From Neolewinella persica DSM 23188 (lineage in GTDB: Bacteria > Bacteroidota > Bacteroidia > Chitinophagales > Saprospiraceae): 64,000 nucleotides of DNA. Location: NCBI RefSeq assembly GCF_000373105.1, contig NZ_KB890447.1:220511-284510 (forward strand), in the 5' to 3' direction. This document shows, piece after piece, positions 1 through 9,140 of this stretch. How positions within the stretch are numbered: position 1 is the stretch's first letter; each line of letters starts with the position of its first letter. The notes beneath the pieces were generated by a model, which worked only from the letters and a program-made list of their open reading frames with translations, searched no databases and was not told the DNA's origin. A program made the translations under genes and the position numbers.

Positions 1-105
1 AGCGCAGCGACCCTGCACCCCCTGCAACCGGAGCGCAGCGACCCTGCAACTCCTGCAACCGGAGCGCAGCAACCCTGCAACTCCTGCAACCGGAGCGCAG
101 CGACC
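1..105. repeat. 31-bp tandem repeat, about 3.4 copies
   Basis: Three near-identical 31-base units (1-31, 32-62, 63-93) and a partial fourth lie end to end. Each contains AGCGCAGCGACC followed by CTGCAAC-type heptamers. The array continues beyond the left edge and stops at the stop codon of the adjacent AraC gene. Related CTGCAAC repeats occur at 17819-17888, 20149-20465 and 45601-45660. Function unknown. Confidence 0.85.
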
Positions 106-2099: not shown

Positions 2100-5000
2100 A
2101 TGTCACCCACCCTTTTAAGTAAAAAACTTGGTGTAGACCTTCAGCCCTGCCAGGAAGAAAACCCCGCCCGCTGTGCCCTCTCCGACCAGCACGGGCAATA
2201 CGTCCTTGATGACCAGCAACGGATCGTCGGACTTAATCTCTTCGGCTATAACGGTGAGAAGGATCGCCCGGCCCTTCCATCGCCAGCCAATTGGCTCCAC
2301 AAGTTGCCCCATCTGAAGTACCTCAACCTGGCCCAGTGCGGATTGACGGCGCTTGACTTAACCGGGCAAACGGAACTGGTCGTCCTCTTCGCCCAGGAAA
2401 ACAAAGCCCTCAAAGAACTAACGTTTCCTACCGCCTTCCCCGCCCTCCTCCGCGCGGTCCTCGACCACTGCGCCCTGACACAAGTTATTTGGCCCGACAG
2501 CCCCGTACTGGAATTCCTCAACGTTAGCCGACAGCAGGAAAAAAGCCTGACGAACTGGTCCTTCGCCAGTGCCTGCCCCAGGCTTTACTTCTGTGATTTG
2601 AGCCATAATGGGCTAACTGGTTTTCAGCTGGGCGCTGGCTTTACCAATTTGGGCATTCTTTGTTTGGAGGATAATGCGTTGACGGAGGTGACTTTTGATG
2701 GGGTGATGCCGGGGTTGGAGAGTTTGCGGTTGAGTGGGAATCAATTGACCATACTACCAGCCAATTTTCAGAAAAACGCGGCTTCGGTTAAAAACCTTTT
2801 TCTAGAGAATAACCCGTGGCAAGATGATATCATTCGTGGCCTTTTAGAGGACTCTACGCCGGCTACCACCGTCAACAAACTGTTCGATTACCTTGATGAT
2901 CAAGTGGGGAAAACTGATTATGACCGCGCCTGTAAGGTGATCATTGTTGGTAACGGAGGAGTTGGTAAAACTAATATTCTCAATCGGCTGACGGGGAAGG
3001 ATTTTGACGGCAAGTCCGTAAGTACCCATGGTGTAAATATTGTGGAACATCGCATTGGGGAGTACGACGTCCAATTCTGGGACTTTGGCGGACAGGATAT
3101 TTATCACGCTACCCACCGGCTTTTTCTTGGGGCAAACGTTGTTTACCTGGTCGTATGGGATAATGTAACGGAAAGACAAGAAACAAGCCGACGCGAGGAA
3201 AAAGGAGTAAATCATGATTATGAAAACTTCCGCTTGCCGTACTGGCTTGATTACGTTTATAGAAGTGCGGCCAGGAGTGGTGAAGCGAAAGCGGACGTAC
3301 CCGTGCTGGTCGTGCAAACAAAAGTGGATGATCGTAGCAAGCGCCATGAGCACCCTGGCTATCGAAAGCGTTTTGATCAGCGGTTTGGTTATTACGAGGA
3401 TGGTATCGCTATAGATTCGGAGACGGACGCTGGCTATGATGATCTTAAGTACCATCTTGGAAAAGTTTTAAAACTAGCTAAAAAGGGTACAGATACCTCA
3501 CCTGGCCCCAAATTACCTGCTGATTATCTGAAAATTCGTAGTCGGCTGCAAGCCCTACGTAAGCAAGGAGATAAAAGCATAAACCTGACAAAATACCGCG
3601 AAGAAGTATGTGACGGCATTAAAATGGAACTTGCTCCTGAAGTTTTATTGGAAAGCTGGCTGCATAAAACAGGCGTTGTCTTTTATCAGCCGGGCTTATT
3701 TAAAGACCAAATTATTCTTGACCAGGAATGGGCGACCGAAGCAGTTTATACCCTGCTTGATCGGGAGGGCGCTAGTGATGCCTACAGATACATCCTAGCC
3801 AGAAACGGCCGGTTTACCGGTGCGGACTTAATTCGTTTTTGGTCGGGTTACAACCAGAGCGAACGTAATCTGTTCGTAGATTTCATGTTGTCCTGTTGGA
3901 TGTGTTTCGAACAGCAGTCCGTTGCAGAAAGCGAAAAACCTTACCGCCACAGGTCTTTTGAGGAACGAGTTTTCATAGCTCCCCAGTTGCTGCCAAAAGA
4001 AAAGCCCCCAGCAGTACATAACATTACCGAGCTACTTGGAAGTCAGGAAAACTGGTGGCACGTACGTTATCAGCACCGTTGGTTGCACGGCCATCTGATG
4101 AATCGTTTTATCATTGAAACGCACCAACTGGCGGAAAATGATTGGATGTGGGAGTCGGGTATTCTCCTCAAAGACGACAAAGGTGCTTTTGCATTAATTG
4201 ATTCCGATCGTGCTCAAGGGAGCATCTCCGTCCGGGTAACCAAGAATAAAGGTAAAGTCCTGCTAGACAAAGTTCTTGGTTTGCTTGAGCGGATACAGCA
4301 AAACGACGAGCCGGGGGTAACCTACCTTAGTGTGGATGGTGAGCAGGAAATTCTGGCCGATCAATTGGAGCAAGCCTACAAAACAAAGACTCCCTATGTG
4401 ATCAGCGAAAACGGTCAGCAGCTACCTATTGACGATTTCGGTGCTTTTTTCTGGCGATTCGATAAGCCGCTAAACGTGGACGACTTTGACGGAGCCTCCG
4501 AAATGGCTAACCTTCAGAAAACTGGTCAAAGGACCAATAAACAAGAGCATCCTCCTATCTTAAGCCTACCGCCGAGGGAATACGGAGACGATGATTTAGC
4601 GGGCAAAGTATTGGCCCTTTGCGCCAATCCTACGAACCTTCCACACCTGAAATTCAAAAAAGAATTAGCGGCCATGGACGAGAGTGTCCGAAAAGGCTTT
4701 TACCTAGGTGCTCCGGTTTTCAAAGTAGCACAGGTGGATAAAAAATCCTTTCATTCCGCCCTGAGAAAACCCAAGCCGGATTACTTGCACTTTGTCGGGC
4801 ATGGTACCGTAGATGCCCTCGCCGAGGATGCAAGGAAGATGGGGCTGGAAGCTTTTGACCAAAGTGGCATTATGCTGTGTGAAACTGGTGGAAACGCTAA
4901 GCTTTTACCGAAGACAACAATCTTGAACTGGTTGCAAAACGCTAACTTAAAACTGGTGGTATTCAATGCCTGTCATACGGCCGGTTTAGCCGAGGAATTA

Positions 5001-5219
5001 AGCATCGAAGGACCTCCCGCTATTGGTGTTGATGGGGAAATGGACGATAATGTTGCTCTGGCTTTCACGGAAGCCTTTTACGAGTACCTTTCTGATGAGG
5101 GGCTACAACAGTTAATTCAATCTTTCTTCCAAGCCCGAAATTATGCGAACGATGTCCACGGTTTTGCCGTACGTTATCAACTATACATAAATGGAAAACA
5201 AGTAACCGAATCAATATGA
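2100..5219 (+). CDS. LRR-Roc-COR-CHAT protein (NLR-like GTPase with caspase-like protease end)
   Basis: 1039 residues, no signal peptide, predicted cytoplasmic. Residues ~60-245 form degenerate leucine-rich repeats (LKYLNLAQCGLTALDL, LESLRLSGNQLTILP). The Roc GTPase occupies ~275-460: P-loop GNGGVGKT at 284-291, G3 motif DFGGQ at 328-332, G4-like TKVD at 407-410. A COR domain follows (~470-780). The last ~210 residues match a CHAT (caspase/HetF-like) peptidase, with candidate catalytic His901 in HFVGHG and Cys958 in FNACHTA. LRR-Roc-COR-CHAT is a known bacterial architecture: the LRR would sense, the Roc-COR would gate, and the CHAT would cleave a partner. The stop overlaps the next gene as ATGA, and variable FGE-fold genes follow. 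The cluster role is inferred; domain calls are strong. Confidence 0.92.
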   Translation: MSPTLLSKKLGVDLQPCQEENPARCALSDQHGQYVLDDQQRIVGLNLFGYNGEKDRPALPSPANWLHKLPHLKYLNLAQCGLTALDLTGQTELVVLFAQENKALKELTFPTAFPALLRAVLDHCALTQVIWPDSPVLEFLNVSRQQEKSLTNWSFASACPRLYFCDLSHNGLTGFQLGAGFTNLGILCLEDNALTEVTFDGVMPGLESLRLSGNQLTILPANFQKNAASVKNLFLENNPWQDDIIRGLLEDSTPATTVNKLFDYLDDQVGKTDYDRACKVIIVGNGGVGKTNILNRLTGKDFDGKSVSTHGVNIVEHRIGEYDVQFWDFGGQDIYHATHRLFLGANVVYLVVWDNVTERQETSRREEKGVNHDYENFRLPYWLDYVYRSAARSGEAKADVPVLVVQTKVDDRSKRHEHPGYRKRFDQRFGYYEDGIAIDSETDAGYDDLKYHLGKVLKLAKKGTDTSPGPKLPADYLKIRSRLQALRKQGDKSINLTKYREEVCDGIKMELAPEVLLESWLHKTGVVFYQPGLFKDQIILDQEWATEAVYTLLDREGASDAYRYILARNGRFTGADLIRFWSGYNQSERNLFVDFMLSCWMCFEQQSVAESEKPYRHRSFEERVFIAPQLLPKEKPPAVHNITELLGSQENWWHVRYQHRWLHGHLMNRFIIETHQLAENDWMWESGILLKDDKGAFALIDSDRAQGSISVRVTKNKGKVLLDKVLGLLERIQQNDEPGVTYLSVDGEQEILADQLEQAYKTKTPYVISENGQQLPIDDFGAFFWRFDKPLNVDDFDGASEMANLQKTGQRTNKQEHPPILSLPPREYGDDDLAGKVLALCANPTNLPHLKFKKELAAMDESVRKGFYLGAPVFKVAQVDKKSFHSALRKPKPDYLHFVGHGTVDALAEDARKMGLEAFDQSGIMLCETGGNAKLLPKTTILNWLQNANLKLVVFNACHTAGLAEELSIEGPPAIGVDGEMDDNVALAFTEAFYEYLSDEGLQQLIQSFFQARNYANDVHGFAVRYQLYINGKQVTESI

Positions 5220-5671
5220 AAGAGTTAGAAAACAGCAAGCTGAAAGCAGCAATCACTACGCTACAACGACCCGATCTTCTGTCGAAACGCCTCCTGCAAG
5301 GGGAACCCATCAAAGAAAGGACATATTCTTTTCCGGCCGGGATGACAAAGGAAGAGGGAGCTGAATTGATGATCGCCATTGCCACCGTTACGGCGGTTGA
5401 AGACGAGGCGTTCGGAGCGCTATATGAGCGAGCGCGGATTCAAGAAAAACAAAGGACCGTTCGTTCCGGAGAGACCATAGAAATAATTGGACAGGCTTAC
5501 CAGTTCTTACACGACCATTGGGGGGAAATTGCCTTTTTTGTTGAAGTGCTGGACCGCAGGAAGGCTTTTGATAAGTTGAAAGAGAAAAGCAAAAACTGGA
5601 AAGCAATTTTCGGAACTATTCTCGAAGAGGAGGAAGATAAAGAGGACGAATCTGAAGAGAAACCCGAATAA
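5216..5671 (+). CDS. Small acidic-tailed protein coupled to Roc-COR-CHAT
   Basis: 151 residues of unknown family. Its ATG overlaps the stop of the CHAT gene (ATGA), and the variable-protein gene follows within six bases, so it is almost certainly co-translated in the operon. It looks mostly helical, with Lys/Glu-rich stretches, and ends in a strongly acidic tail (EEEEDKEDESEEKPE). No signal peptide, membrane segment or catalytic motif is visible. The middle has alanine-rich helices (GAELMIAIATVTAVEDEAFGAL) and a possible second helical unit (IIGQAYQFLHDHWGEIAFFVEVL). It could be an adaptor, a CHAT substrate or an effector. I do not assign a function. Confidence 0.85.
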   Translation: MKELENSKLKAAITTLQRPDLLSKRLLQGEPIKERTYSFPAGMTKEEGAELMIAIATVTAVEDEAFGALYERARIQEKQRTVRSGETIEIIGQAYQFLHDHWGEIAFFVEVLDRRKAFDKLKEKSKNWKAIFGTILEEEEDKEDESEEKPE

Positions 5672-5677
5672 ATTGTG

Positions 5678-6478
5678 ATGCTTACTCCTCTTTTTCAAAA
5701 AATCATTTTACCATCTTTAATATCTAACACCGTTGGTGAAGTAGATTTTAATATGCGTATTCTCCCCGGCGCCGAAAACTTCCCCATAGGCAACAACAAA
5801 GGAGAAGAAGACAGTTACGAAGACGAGCAACCACGCCACTCCCGCAGCATCGCCCCCTTCGCCCTGGCCGAATACCCCGTCACCCAAACCCTTTGGACGG
5901 CAGTGTACAATCTGGCTGAGGAAAGAAACTTGAAGTTCGATGATGATCTACTACGCCCCAATCCTTCGAATTTCCTAGGCCCCAACCGGCCAGTAGAAAA
6001 AGTAAGCTGGAACGACGCCCACGAATTTTGCCGCATTCTGAACCTACTTTGTGGAAAGCCCGAAAAATACTTCCGCCTCCCCTCCGAAGCAGAATGGGAA
6101 TACGCTGCCCGGGCGGGGAAACGGGAAACGCTCTATGCAGGAAGTAACCAGCTGAATGAAGTTGGTTGGTACGGTGAAAACAATAAAAAAGAAACCATGC
6201 CTGTCGGACTACTAACGCCAAACGTCTTCGGTTTGTACGACCTTAGCGGTAACGTATTTGAGTGGTGCGAAGACGATTGGCACGGAAATTATGAAAATCA
6301 CCCATCGGACGGGCAGGCCTGGATTGATGATCCCGAAAAGCGCGCCTCCATCCGCGTGCGGCGCGGCGGCTCCTGGTACAACCTCGCCAGGTACTGTCGC
6401 TGCGCCCTCCGCATCGGGAACGGGCCGGACCTCCGTGACCGAGTCTACGGCTTCCGCCTCGCCGCCCCAGTTCAGTGA
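5678..6478 (+). CDS. DGR variable protein 1 (FGE-sulfatase/C-type-lectin fold)
   Basis: 266 residues (GTG at 5675 is immediately followed by ATG 5678, which I use). The whole protein is a formylglycine-generating-enzyme-like domain: FALAEYPVTQTLW, LPSEAEWEYAARAGK and GLYDLSGNVFEWCEDDW are family hallmarks. The C-terminal ~43 residues are encoded by variable repeat VR1 and carry the scaffold RGGSWxxxARxCRCAxR with substituted positions between. In DGR targets this fold is used as a diversified ligand-binding lectin, not as an enzyme. No signal peptide or anchor is present, so a cytoplasmic location is inferred. Six bases separate its GTG from the preceding stop, placing it in the CHAT operon. 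Confidence 0.93.
   Translation: MLTPLFQKIILPSLISNTVGEVDFNMRILPGAENFPIGNNKGEEDSYEDEQPRHSRSIAPFALAEYPVTQTLWTAVYNLAEERNLKFDDDLLRPNPSNFLGPNRPVEKVSWNDAHEFCRILNLLCGKPEKYFRLPSEAEWEYAARAGKRETLYAGSNQLNEVGWYGENNKKETMPVGLLTPNVFGLYDLSGNVFEWCEDDWHGNYENHPSDGQAWIDDPEKRASIRVRRGGSWYNLARYCRCALRIGNGPDLRDRVYGFRLAAPVQ
6340..6470 (+). repeat. DGR variable repeat VR1
   Basis: 131 bases homologous to TR (8037-8167). It differs at 17 positions, all of them adenines in TR (9 A to T, 5 A to G, 3 A to C). No other base differs. The last ~22 bases (GGCTTCCGCC through CCCCAG) are identical to TR, GC-rich and nearly A-free, as expected for the initiation-of-homing end. VR1 stops 8 bases before the end of the gene. Confidence 0.97.
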
Positions 6479-6480
6479 GC

Positions 6481-6560
6481 CCGGCCAGCCAGCGAGCGAG
6501 GCTCGGCGTAAGCCCTCGCGGTCCGCGGCGGAGCAAGCGGGACGCAAGGGGTGGAGTGGG
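6481..6560 (+). repeat. Conserved flank downstream of VR1
   Basis: About 80 GC-rich bases after the stop codon that reappear, with small gaps, at 9143-9222 after variable protein 2. Shared blocks include GCGGCGGAGCAAGCGGG and GCAAGGGGTG. The sequence is absent after TR. It may reflect duplication of the whole target cassette or a cis-acting homing flank. Confidence 0.75.
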
Positions 6561-6583
6561 GCCGAGCTAAAGCAAAGAAAGAG

Positions 6584-7039
6584 ATGCAGATAAAAATATT
6601 TTCGATGCCGGTCTGGGGTGATGAAGCTCAGGAGGAAAAACTCAACAAATTCCTCCGGAGCCACCGAATTCTACAAGTAGAAAAACAATTCATTGCAGAT
6701 GGCAGCAACAGCCAATGGTGTTTTTGCGTGGAATACCTGGAGGGAGGTGAGCCAATAAAGCGATCAAGTAGGAAGCAAGCCAAAGTAGACTACAGGGAAG
6801 TTTTATCCCTGGAGGCTTTTGCCCGGTTTGCCCGCTACCGGGAAATCAGAAAGGCCTTAGCGGTGAGTGAGGGGATTCCGCCCTACGTCATCTTTACGGA
6901 TAAGGAGATCGCTGCCATGGCGGAAGTAAAGGAGCTTACAGTATCTAGTATACGCTCCATTAAGGGTATTGGTGAGAAGAAAATAGCCAAGTATGCCACT
7001 CATTTTATAGTGGTCAATACAGATGAAACGAAGAAGTAA
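6584..7039 (+). CDS. HRDC-domain DGR accessory protein
   Basis: 151 residues from ATG 6584; an upstream GTG (6551) lies in the repeated VR flank, so the ATG is preferred. The N-terminal ~75 residues (MQIKIFSMPVWGDEAQEEKL) form a small alpha/beta domain typical of DGR-linked HRDC proteins. The rest is a helicase-and-RNaseD C-terminal (HRDC) nucleic-acid-binding domain: YREIRKALAVSEGIPPYVIF, then SIKGIGEKKIAKY, a hairpin-like loop. HRDC proteins are known as an alternative to Avd in some DGRs. It overlaps the RT gene by 17 bases, suggesting translational coupling. It probably binds template RNA or cDNA with RT. Confidence 0.9.
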   Translation: MQIKIFSMPVWGDEAQEEKLNKFLRSHRILQVEKQFIADGSNSQWCFCVEYLEGGEPIKRSSRKQAKVDYREVLSLEAFARFARYREIRKALAVSEGIPPYVIFTDKEIAAMAEVKELTVSSIRSIKGIGEKKIAKYATHFIVVNTDETKK

Positions 7040-8036
7040 CCTTATCCCACTGATCGCCGAGCCGGAAAACCTGCGGCGCGCCTTCGTAAAGGCAAGACGC
7101 GGGAAAACGGCCAGTAAGGAAGTATTGGCTTTTACAGACGATTTGGACGACCAACTGCTTCAACTCAGAACTGATTTACTGAGCGGAGTGATAAGACACG
7201 GCGGGTACCGGAAATTCATCATCCACGAGCCAAAACGCAGGGAGATTTGCGCGGGTAGCTTTTCTCAAAACGTTTTGCACCACGCTATCCTGAACCATTG
7301 CCACGAAGATTTTGAGCGGCATCAGCTTTTTGATTCCTATGCCTGTCGGCGGGGTAAAGGAACCCATGCTGCCGTGGCGCGTGCCCAGGGTTTTTCGCGG
7401 CGTTACGCTTGGTACCTTAAGCTGGATGTGCGCAATTTTTTCGCTTCCGTTCATCATGAAACGCTAAGCGGACAGCTTCAGCGATTATTCAAAGATGAAC
7501 GCTTGCTGAATATTTTCGACCAAACACTGTCTACTTACTCGGCCATTCCTGGCAGAGGCTTACCACTCGGCAACCTAACCAGTCAGTATTTCGCCAACCA
7601 TTACCTCACCCCCGTAGATCGATGGGTGAAACAAACGATGTGCTGCCCGGCTTACGTGCGCTACATGGATGATATGGTGCTATGGCATGATGACAAAGCC
7701 CAACTGCTTTACGCCTTTCAGCAAATAACGGAAATCGTCCACTTAATACTGAAGGTTGAACTCAAGCCGGTAATACTAAATCGAACAACTAAAGGGCTTT
7801 CTTTTTTAGGCTACCGCATACTGCCCTATCAACTAAAACTTACGCACGCAAGTCGCAAGCGTTTAGGGCGTAAACTTGTCCGCCTCAATTCCGAATACCA
7901 TCAAGGCCTCATTTCGGAAAAAGAAGCACAACGCCGTGCCCAAAGCCTCATCGCTTTTGTAGACCACGCAAATACTGCCGCATTACGCAAAGATTTGCTG
8001 AAAAAAGCCGACCTTGCTTCCGGGGCACCTCTATAA
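7023..8036 (+). CDS. DGR reverse transcriptase
   Basis: 337 residues, near the compact size usual for DGR RTs. Motifs seen: LKLDVRNFFASVHHETL (palm motif 3), LPLGNLTSQ at ~180-188 (the DGR/retron-type LGxxxSQ that replaces QGxxxSP of group II introns), YMDD at 214-217 (catalytic) and GLSFLGYRI (motif 6/7 region). It would copy TR RNA into cDNA with mis-incorporation opposite adenines; the TR/VR comparison here shows that outcome. No endonuclease or maturase domain is present. The gene overlaps the HRDC gene and is followed immediately by TR. Confidence 0.97.
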   Translation: MKRRSNLIPLIAEPENLRRAFVKARRGKTASKEVLAFTDDLDDQLLQLRTDLLSGVIRHGGYRKFIIHEPKRREICAGSFSQNVLHHAILNHCHEDFERHQLFDSYACRRGKGTHAAVARAQGFSRRYAWYLKLDVRNFFASVHHETLSGQLQRLFKDERLLNIFDQTLSTYSAIPGRGLPLGNLTSQYFANHYLTPVDRWVKQTMCCPAYVRYMDDMVLWHDDKAQLLYAFQQITEIVHLILKVELKPVILNRTTKGLSFLGYRILPYQLKLTHASRKRLGRKLVRLNSEYHQGLISEKEAQRRAQSLIAFVDHANTAALRKDLLKKADLASGAPL

Positions 8037-8167
8037 GCGCGCCTCCAACCGCGTGCAGCGCGGCGGCTCCTGGAACAACAACGCCAGGAACTGTCGCTGC
8101 GCCAACCGCAACAGGAACAGGCCGGACAACCGTAACCGAAACAACGGCTTCCGCCTCGCCGCCCCAG
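8037..8167 (+). repeat. DGR template repeat TR
   Basis: 131 bases starting at the base after the RT stop codon. Read in the VR frame it contains 12 AAC codons, the classic DGR template arrangement in which mutating both adenines gives wide amino-acid choice without creating stops. It contains 31 adenines. VR1 and VR2 each match it at all non-adenine positions. Upstream it abuts RT coding sequence, so the RT transcript probably serves as template RNA. Confidence 0.98.
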
Positions 8168-8312
8168 CTCACACCCGGCCGGATGGCCGGATCTGAACAG
8201 GAGGTGCTCCTGTTCCTGCATCAGCAGGACAAAGATGCCTTACCTTAAGGCGGGTCGGTGGGCCTAGTAGCAATGCCGAAACGCCCACCGCCCCTTTACA
8301 GAATAACAACTT
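8168..8312 (+). promoter_or_regulatory. TR-to-VP2 spacer with hairpin
   Basis: The spacer contains a perfect 8-bp stem (GAACAGGA/TCCTGTTC, 8195-8202 with 8208-8215, loop GGTGC). Just before it is the GC-rich palindrome-like run CCGGCCGGATGGCCGG. It could fold the 3' end of template RNA or help initiate cDNA synthesis. There is no T-tract, so a terminator is less likely. Confidence 0.5.
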
Positions 8313-9140
8313 ATGTCCCTTACCGCACTTTTCGCTCCGGCAAACTCCCAGCAAAAGGTATTTACCATCGGCTCCACCTCCTTCCGGATGATCACACTGC
8401 CCGGAAAAGAGGGCTTCTGGATGGGGGAGGATGAATCGGCTAGAGATTCGGAGAAGCCCAGACACCAGCGGGATATTGCTCCTTTTGCACTGGCAGAATT
8501 TCTGGTGACCCAGCAGCTGTGGGAAGCGGTGGTAGCAAAGGGCCTTCAGCACCCTCAGGCGCGGACGCTGGTGCAAGGTCATGCAGAGGAGCAAACTTTG
8601 CCACTCAACCCCGCTTATTTCCGAGGGAAAAACCGACCAGTTGAATATGTGAATTGGCACGAGGCACGAAGATTTTGCGCAGTACTTAGCATGCTGACGG
8701 TCGGGAAACCTGATTTCTTTCGGCTGCCTAGCGAAGCTGAATGGGAATATGCCGCCCGTACGGGAGCCAGAGAAACTGTTTACGCGGGGAGTAACCAACT
8801 GGGGGAAGTGGCGTGGCATGATGGCAATAATGAAAAAGAAACCATGCCCGTTGGCCTTCTCCTGCCTAATGCATTCGGATTGTACGATCTGAGTGGCAAC
8901 GTATGGGAATGGTGTGAAGACGATTGGCACGACGATTACAAGAACCATCCAGGCAACAGTGCTGCATGGAAAGATGGTGAAACGGAAGAGGCGCGCGCCT
9001 CCCTCCGCGTGCTGCGCGGCGGCTCCTGGGACTACGTCGCCAGGAACTGTCGCTGCGCCAACCGCTACTGGTTCAGGCCGGGCAACCGTGGCCGTTACTA
9101 CGGCTTCCGCCTCGCCGCCCCAGTTTCAGATTCAGTGTGA
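8313..9140 (+). CDS. DGR variable protein 2 (FGE-sulfatase/C-type-lectin fold)
   Basis: 275 residues, paralogous to variable protein 1. It has the same FGE-like landmarks (FALAEFLVTQQLWEAV, LPSEAEWEYAARTGAR, GLYDLSGNVWEWCEDDW), and its C-terminal ~45 residues include VR2. It lacks a signal peptide. A longer insertion (residues ~68-100, rich in Gln/Ala/Leu) separates it from VP1 in the first third. The TR sits 145 bases upstream, making this the TR-proximal target. Having two targets lets one RT diversify two receptors. The ligand is unknown, and enzymatic formylglycine activity is not expected. Confidence 0.93.
   Translation: MSLTALFAPANSQQKVFTIGSTSFRMITLPGKEGFWMGEDESARDSEKPRHQRDIAPFALAEFLVTQQLWEAVVAKGLQHPQARTLVQGHAEEQTLPLNPAYFRGKNRPVEYVNWHEARRFCAVLSMLTVGKPDFFRLPSEAEWEYAARTGARETVYAGSNQLGEVAWHDGNNEKETMPVGLLLPNAFGLYDLSGNVWEWCEDDWHDDYKNHPGNSAAWKDGETEEARASLRVLRGGSWDYVARNCRCANRYWFRPGNRGRYYGFRLAAPVSDSV
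8993..9123 (+). repeat. DGR variable repeat VR2
   Basis: 131 bases homologous to TR with 17 substitutions, all at TR adenines (11 A to T, 5 A to G, 1 A to C). Nine positions are changed in both VRs, but the bases mostly differ between them, so the two VRs carry separate mutagenesis histories. The terminal GC-rich block matches TR exactly up to CCCCAG. Confidence 0.97.

Follow-up and report, generated by a model that had tools for sequence, protein, structure and literature searches.

The stretch of DNA analysed here comprises 64,000 nucleotides of Neolewinella persica DSM 23188 (contig NZ_KB890447.1, positions 220,511 to 284,510; hereafter the window). Between positions 2100 and 9140 it harbors a run of genes, all on one strand, encoding a leucine-rich repeat (LRR)-Roc-COR protein with a C-terminal CHAT domain (Roco-CHAT), a small protein, a protein with the formylglycine-generating enzyme (FGE) fold, an HRDC protein and the reverse transcriptase (RT) of a diversity-generating retroelement (DGR), followed by a template repeat (TR) and a second FGE gene. 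Both FGE-fold variable proteins (VP1 and VP2) are encoded by genes ending in a variable repeat (VR) that matches the TR, and the features are located as follows:

2100..5219, plus strand: LRR-Roc-COR-CHAT (Roco-CHAT) gene, product of 1039 amino acids, domains by Pfam
5216..5671, plus strand: gene of a small protein of 151 amino acids, in ATGA overlap with the Roco stop codon
5675..6478, plus strand: VP1, stand-alone FGE/C-type-lectin fold, 267 amino acids (PF03781; e-value: 3.6e-46)
6338..6474, plus strand: VR1, repeat match to the TR
6551..7039, plus strand: HRDC accessory protein of the DGR (PF00570; e-value: 4.3e-14)
7023..8036, plus strand: DGR reverse transcriptase (PF00078, RVT_1; e-value: 1.1e-14; phrog_1423; e-value: 1.6e-88)
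8035..8171, plus strand: TR, overlapping the RT stop codon by two bases
8313..9140, plus strand: VP2, stand-alone FGE fold, 275 amino acids (PF03781; e-value: 4.7e-48)
8991..9127, plus strand: VR2, repeat match to the TR

These genes and positions had been proposed in a first-pass annotation made from the letters alone, and the open reading frames, Pfam domains and repeats agree with it. The Roco-CHAT protein comprises LRRs (residues ~1-240), a Roc domain from residue 279, COR-A (473-631), COR-B (654-764) and CHAT (852-999), with Roc, COR-A, COR-B, CHAT and LRR_4 all scoring above the Pfam cut-offs. The GTPase motifs reported in that annotation, GNGGVGKT and DFGGQ, are both present, and among 51 Roco proteins the P-loop is found in all and the DxGG pattern in 45. 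Its candidate catalytic residues, His901 and Cys958, are likewise borne out, being invariant in 10/10 aligned rows (window counted), while in a larger Roco-CHAT set, sharing three rows (window, L017 and L018) with the first, Cys is found in 13/13 rows and His in 12/13 (12/12 of those covered, L107 not reaching the His). The CHAT domain of the window carries an intact His/Cys pair and is a candidate protease. The label 'NLR-like' survives as an analogy only, as the switch belongs to the Roco GTPases and no STAND, NACHT or NB-ARC domain was matched by Pfam at an e-value of 0.1 in the window Roco protein. The predicted structure of the protein (pLDDT: 77.5; pTM: 0.51) shares its Roc-COR fold with the Roco protein of Chlorobium tepidum (CtRoco; 6hlu, 3dpu), which does not stand in a CHAT context (3dpu; template modelling (TM) score over Roc-COR: 0.73 of target), and its C-terminal end matches the SAVED-CHAT structure 8tl0 (TM: 0.33 of target; ~215 columns). 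Superposition on 6hlu over the whole length was poor (root-mean-square deviation: 37.8; TM: 0.41 of target), and as such the relative placement of the domains in the model is unsupported. SAVED-CHAT proteins are gated by a nucleotide sensor. PADLOC returned single-domain matches only for the window genes (SAVED_CHAT, 3.1e-4; DpdF, in its HRDC part, 7.9e-15; many RT models) and no full match of the locus to a described anti-phage system.

Of the 18 mismatches between VR1 and the TR, 17 fall at TR adenines (P = 1.7e-11), as do 20 of the 22 between VR2 and the TR over the same 137 nt (P = 4.9e-13), or 17/17 when the VR2 alignment is trimmed to 131 nt. In the 7.08-Mb genome only three sequences match the TR, namely the TR itself, VR1 and VR2. 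This pattern indicates that VP1 and VP2, both stand-alone FGE-fold proteins, have had their C-terminal ends rewritten by the DGR, as the first-pass annotation had supposed. The template places an adenine at the first or second position of 18 codons, and in a comparison of 27 VP sequences variability is far higher at the A-coded VR sites (2.69 bits) than at the fixed VR sites (0.60) or in the remainder of the protein (1.19). The set consists of VP1 and 26 of its 52 matches, leaving out P0032 (equal to VP1), P0049, P0055 and 23 matches below P0060, and including P0050 and P0056, whose VR by eye seems to be read out of frame. An RT, adenine-biased TR/VR pairs, template-adenine hypervariation among relatives and an HRDC protein, which has been named as a DGR accessory (PMC10053308), are therefore all found in the window. 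VP1, for which an alternative ATG start at 5678 is possible, is closest by sequence among solved structures to TvpA of Treponema denticola (2y3c; e-value: 3.2e-29), likewise a DGR variable protein and one for which we know of no Roco partner. Formylglycine-generating enzymes possess two catalytic cysteines near the C-terminus. When VP1 is aligned with 6s07 the second of these (SYC) is retained, while the first (FLC) faces an Asn in a DGR-variable codon, and as the position of this cysteine is open to DGR variation the VPs are probably not active FGE enzymes.

The same gene order, Roco-CHAT, small protein, FGE, HRDC, RT, TR and FGE, is found in genome G216, taken as Neolewinella lacunae, where 18/18 and 20/21 VR mismatches fall at TR adenines. 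The small protein, unmatched in Pfam and PADLOC and matched weakly in PHROG (e-value: 0.023), was found in two of 298 order-level genomes, the source genome and G216, where the homologue (locus L018) shares 32% identity over 107 amino acids; three metagenome homologues were also found, and its AlphaFold model (pLDDT: 42.5) is too poor for a structure search. A third genus genome, G300, carries Roco-CHAT and one FGE gene, with no RT found. In these three of 21 genus genomes (window, G216 and G300) the Roco-FGE locus adjoins dnaE. No such locus precedes dnaE in the other 18, of which G302 offers only ~3 kb on its contig, and G206 bears an FGE gene of ~30% identity before dnaE on the opposite strand. 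The dnaE site was rejected as a general defence hotspot, since these 18/21 genomes lack the locus there. A phage origin was also rejected, as none of 50,697 phage records matched the Roco protein, and so was a plasmid origin, since 27 plasmid records match the Roco protein but none over 80% of the query. At the phylum level, 11 of 395 genomes besides the source genome (G000) match at an e-value of 1e-40, all belonging to one other family (f38) and all weaker (best: 3.9e-63).

The association extends beyond the genus. A search of 396 order-level genomes with the RT alone as query yielded at least 38 RT loci in 26 genomes, which together hold 57 COR-A genes; both the RT and the Roco genome searches give lower bounds, with at most five candidates scored in some genomes for the former and two per genome for the latter. 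Of these 38 loci, 11 have a COR-domain gene within 10 kb, which lies on the same strand in 11/11, whereas 0.31 would be expected; with G000 and G216 left out, the figures are 9/36 and 0.29. As the expectation presumes random gene placement, it takes no account of any general tendency of defence or mobile genes to cluster. The genes at these 9/36 RT loci, inspected outside the two Neolewinella loci, are of the LRR-Roc-COR type, and the Roco search added three further RT-Roco loci (L098, L100 and L105), the first of which, from another genus, combines Roco-CHAT with an RT and five FGE genes. An adenine-biased VR lies inside an FGE gene in 13 of the 14 RT-Roco loci; none was found in L080, which is on a cut contig. 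The exact order proposed for the window recurs in N. lacunae, but placement of the Roco gene upstream of the RT is restricted to the two Neolewinella loci, the gene lying downstream in the other 12. One of the RT-Roco loci, L076, contains a single DGR with three adenine-biased VRs in three stand-alone FGE genes, the last of which is overlapped by the Roco gene by four bases.

Where a Roco gene is adjacent, the DGR target is short in 13/13 loci (median: 271 amino acids; all at most 340), whereas those at loci without a Roco gene have a median of 543 amino acids, with 21/26 loci above 340 and 5/26 short (Fisher P = 1e-6, with the 340-residue cut chosen after viewing the data; rank test P = 7e-5). 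L080 and L087, which have no detectable VR, are left out of this test, and the rank test gives P = 7e-7 without L065 and L079 (cut contigs) and L096 and L097 (non-FGE targets). Several loci share one genome (e.g. G198, G228, G284 and G571), and as such the loci are not fully independent. Pfam detected a switch domain in one of seven long targets, that of L086. This protein of 1241 amino acids (L086:949-4674) combines a CHAT-like start, which is under the Pfam cut-off yet contains H-G and N-A-C motifs, with an nSTAND3 domain (over the cut-off) and a DGR-variable FGE end, and has HRDC and RT genes downstream. By its predicted domains L086 is a fused counterpart of the split system. The gene structures, with short targets beside Roco genes and a fused switch in L086, suggest that the Roco protein may provide, as a separate chain in trans, the part that other targets carry fused in cis.

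All 50 of the FGE genes found within 3.5 kb of a Roco gene lie on the Roco strand, and as many as five stand beside one Roco gene. Stand-alone FGE genes within this distance occur at 12/20 loci in L098-L117, which are the top 17 non-Neolewinella rows and three lower rows reaching into CHAT, and at 4/20 in L118-L137, hand-picked from the remaining Roco rows, neither set being random; L115 (a cut FGE gene) and L124 (an FGE gene, no COR match) are additional to these. In a tree of 51 Roc-COR sequences the FGE-linked rows fill two supported clades, of 11 rows (100/99) and 8 rows (99/97), and elsewhere are mixed with others, so that the FGE label changes seven times in the tree compared to 17.1 times in shuffles. 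Effector type and RT presence change within the Roc-COR clades. A C-terminal TIR, CHAT, caspase or EAD11 domain was detected in 17/20 relatives scanned, the assignments being by Pfam unless stated:

TIR: L066, L067, L069, L088, L105
EAD11 and TIR: L100, L104
CHAT: L098, L116, L117
EAD11 and CHAT: L102, L108
Caspase: L082
EAD11 alone: L101, L103, and below the cut-off L072
CHAT by a custom model only, not Pfam: L112
No effector match: L062, L076, L080

The FGE genes of Roco loci without an RT also bear a DGR-like signature. Variability at A-coded sites is 3.04 bits in RT-less Roco loci (15 loci, 29 proteins) and 2.98 bits in those with an RT (13 loci, 24 proteins). Furthermore, at sites with an AAC template, a class set by the TR of the window while other loci have their own templates, 328/348 codons end in a pyrimidine compared to 2783/5417 in the protein body; when only four-fold degenerate codons are counted, the values are 87/96 at AAC sites, 1176/2199 in the body and 357/524 at fixed VR positions. 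This pyrimidine excess constitutes a DGR-like codon mark. Using the RT of the window as query (e-value: 1e-15), no RT was found in 9 of the 14 genomes that contain RT-less Roco-FGE loci; the RT could have been lost there, have diverged, or be missed because the assemblies are fragmented and have gaps. The RT-less L112 has a 60-nt TR-like match. In L133 (G601) and L101 (G335), tandem FGE genes lie beside the Roco gene, with bodies 82-94% identical and divergent C-termini, and no RT was found in either genome.

Among the window Roco protein and its seven nearest relatives the LRR is the best-conserved part (55-86% identity), while the CHAT domain shares 24-30%; the between-pair means exclude P0010 and P0014, and P0008 is without most of the LRR. 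P0005 and P0007 are 98-100% identical in the first 120 alignment columns, 82% in the next 60 and 7-52% beyond, and these near-identical front ends joined to very different Roc-COR parts suggest an exchange of the rear part as a module. Across 27 Roco-FGE loci the similarity of the FGE proteins, with the VR removed, tracks that of the LRR when Roc-COR is controlled for (rho = 0.34; P = 2e-4), and does so without Neolewinella (rho = 0.26; P = 0.004), although this controls relatedness only partly. Overall, the FGE proteins track the LRR more closely than they do Roc-COR, and the correlation would fit an LRR that docks the FGE scaffold.

Elements of such a system have been described. LRR-AP-GTPase(Roc)-COR-effector conflict systems are known with effectors that include TIR, caspase, trypsin, FGS and EADs, and Haliscomenobacter hydrossis holds 11 paralogues (Kaur et al. 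2021, PMC8195603). They resemble the window protein in their LRR, Roc, COR and variable C-terminal domains, but place FGS in the effector position of the protein, whereas here the FGE proteins are encoded by separate genes, many of them DGR-written. The LRR, furthermore, is termed rapidly evolving there, whereas it is the best-conserved part among the seven near relatives here, if not in two distant ones. NTPase-FGS systems with a DGR, for which an AP-GTPase has been named as a possible substitute for the STAND ATPase (Kaur et al. 2021, PMC8195603), and DGRs with vWA-FGS proteins (Kaur et al. 2020, PMC7159879) have likewise been reported; the former share a DGR-diversified FGS-fold sensor, an NTPase switch and death effectors, and were compared by their authors to vertebrate adaptive receptors. 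In those systems FGS is combined with the NTPase or mostly fused to the vWA protein, while here it is a separate protein, and Pfam detected neither a MoxR ATPase nor a vWA protein among the nine genes between 105 and 13492 of the window. The DGR targets of Thiohalocapsa PB-PSB1, one of them a CHAT-TIR protein, are putative antigen sensors (Dore et al. 2024, PMC10907252) and resemble the present system in being DGR-varied C-type-lectin (CLec) proteins with CHAT, TIR, NACHT or nSTAND1 partners. A stand-alone target near a separate switch also has precedent there, since the DGR 8 and clade 5A loci include a short target that consists of CLec only and adjoins a MoxR-like ATPase; the separate switch is thus a MoxR ATPase in that case, and here a Roco protein that itself bears the effector. 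The words GTPase, Roc, leucine and Bacteroidota are absent from the main text of that article, and the main texts of Roux et al. 2021 (PMC8144416) and PMC10053308 name neither CHAT nor GTPase. The general idea is as such already published (Kaur et al. 2020, 2021; Dore et al. 2024), and the Roco-FGE theme is wider than the first-pass annotation saw. Its suggestion that the layout may be undescribed holds for the pairing of a DGR-written FGE with an LRR-Roc-COR-effector protein, no description of which was found in the text passages covered of PMC8195603, PMC7159879, PMC10907252, PMC8144416 and PMC10053308, or in the titles and abstract openings among the matches listed; it does not hold for the FGS-DGR and LRR-AP-GTPase-COR-effector systems, which are in print (PMC8195603).

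An immune role of the locus is likely. More specifically, we consider it reasonably probable that the locus encodes a split, hypervariable intracellular immune receptor, in which an FGE sensor written by the DGR would act through an LRR-Roc-COR switch on a death effector. The FGE protein would dock on the LRR by its constant face and bind an invader molecule by its variable face, upon which the Roc GTPase would flip, the COR dimer rearrange and the released CHAT domain cleave host or partner proteins, so that the infected cell would stop growing or die; a TIR or caspase domain would stand in place of CHAT in relatives, and the small protein (5216-5671) might, as a guess, be an adaptor or brake. 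More tentatively, the Saprospirales may possess a two-chain, adaptive-like receptor composed of a hypermutated FGE chain and an LRR docking chain with a GTPase switch and an exchangeable CHAT, TIR or caspase effector, of which some lineages would keep a mutating DGR and others, after loss of the RT, frozen inherited DGR-written sensors. Some Roco proteins may furthermore sit in known defence loci, as COR-domain genes adjoin restriction-modification genes or lie near brxC on plasmids of Haliscomenobacter hydrossis: one (L138:3950-7291) lies ahead of a DNA methyltransferase gene paired with a restriction S subunit gene, and another (L139:5612-8737) is followed by one hypothetical gene and then DUF1788 and brxC. 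Both are Roco proteins of another kind, sharing 27-28% identity over 46% of the query, and no FGE is annotated beside them, so that any support they lend to a defence role is indirect.

Several observations weigh against the split receptor. Full-length Roco-CHAT is found in only three of the 21 genus genomes and the RT in two, no Roco gene is present at 27/36 RT loci, some of them on cut contigs, and 24/51 Roco genes, one of these with an RT, have no FGE gene within 3.5 kb. In the distant relatives P0010 and P0014 the LRR (27% identity) is not the best-conserved part, Roc reaching 43 and 31%. Within the clade of 11 the LRR tracks the FGE (rho = 0.52) but so does Roc-COR (0.44; P = 0.009), and in the clade of eight the LRR-FGE correlation is absent (rho = 0.13; P = 0.29). 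Finally, an RT lies within 6 kb of only 3/13 Roco-CHAT loci (window, N. lacunae and L098), whereas a stand-alone FGE gene lies within 3.5 kb of 10/13. The adjacency of CHAT and DGR genes envisaged in the first-pass annotation therefore stands for Roco genes near RTs in general (11/38) but is uncommon for CHAT itself, and the recurrent unit is Roco and FGE, with the FGE as the constant partner and the DGR optional.

Kin or self/non-self recognition, in which the FGE proteins would read peer molecules and the Roco effector would execute incompatibility or developmental death in aggregates, is an unlikely explanation. The effector set would suit any regulated cell death, such systems have been placed mainly in multicellular prokaryotes (Kaur et al. 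2020, PMC7159879) and the locus adjoins dnaE in three of the Neolewinella genomes; however, the FGE proteins have no obvious export signal (by-eye inspection only), and related COR-domain genes adjoin the restriction-modification genes and lie near the brxC described above. Similarly improbable is target-guarding, whereby the FGE array would be a mutable decoy or inhibitor restraining the Roco effector until invader binding or loss of an FGE protein frees it. The alignment of up to five FGE genes with one effector gene, and FGE similarity that follows the LRR, are compatible with restraint, but random mutation of a bound inhibitor would, by reasoning, often trigger suicide. It is very unlikely that the DGR works only for binding proteins of its own and is a chance neighbour of Roco genes in variable islands, for although RT loci without a Roco gene, the RT-less Roco-CHAT and FGE genes of G300 and the clustering ignored by the 0.31 expectation point that way, this would not account for the same strand at all 11 COR-linked RT loci, the stand-alone targets in 13/13 Roco loci, the two Roco clades with FGE neighbours in every row or the DGR-marked FGE genes retained beside Roco genes in RT-less loci.

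If the split receptor is correct, bacteria would possess an immune receptor in two parts, a sensor that mutates and a switch that stays constant but can be fitted with different killing domains, in loose parallel to antigen receptors and their signalling partners, and bacterial Roco proteins, relatives of human LRRK2, would gain a concrete input and job. Neolewinella lacunae would then allow immune outcome to be measured alongside targeted hypermutation in one organism, with the RT-less relatives as natural controls holding fixed sensor sets.

Additional genes and repeats can be observed around the locus and elsewhere in these genomes. The source genome holds 16 CHAT matches, including short CHAT proteins akin to the CHAT end of the Roco protein on G000:C25 (L019) and G000:C28 (L020), near large genes that by eye are caspase-like; the former also has a second CHAT match ~2 kb away and a MoxR-type ATPase gene, judged by eye. 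In N. lacunae, L059 (G216:C80) contains two further Roco genes beside a gene that by eye resembles a DNA methylase. On the minus strand of the window, positions 1027-1905 encode a probable membrane protein with a weak DUF6637 match; its relatives lie near dnaE in G300, G302 and G298, two of which are without the Roco locus, and the gene is probably a neighbour rather than part of the system. At the start of the window (1-105), three copies of a 43-nt repeat with 31-nt spacing abut the 3′ end of a minus-strand AraC-family gene.

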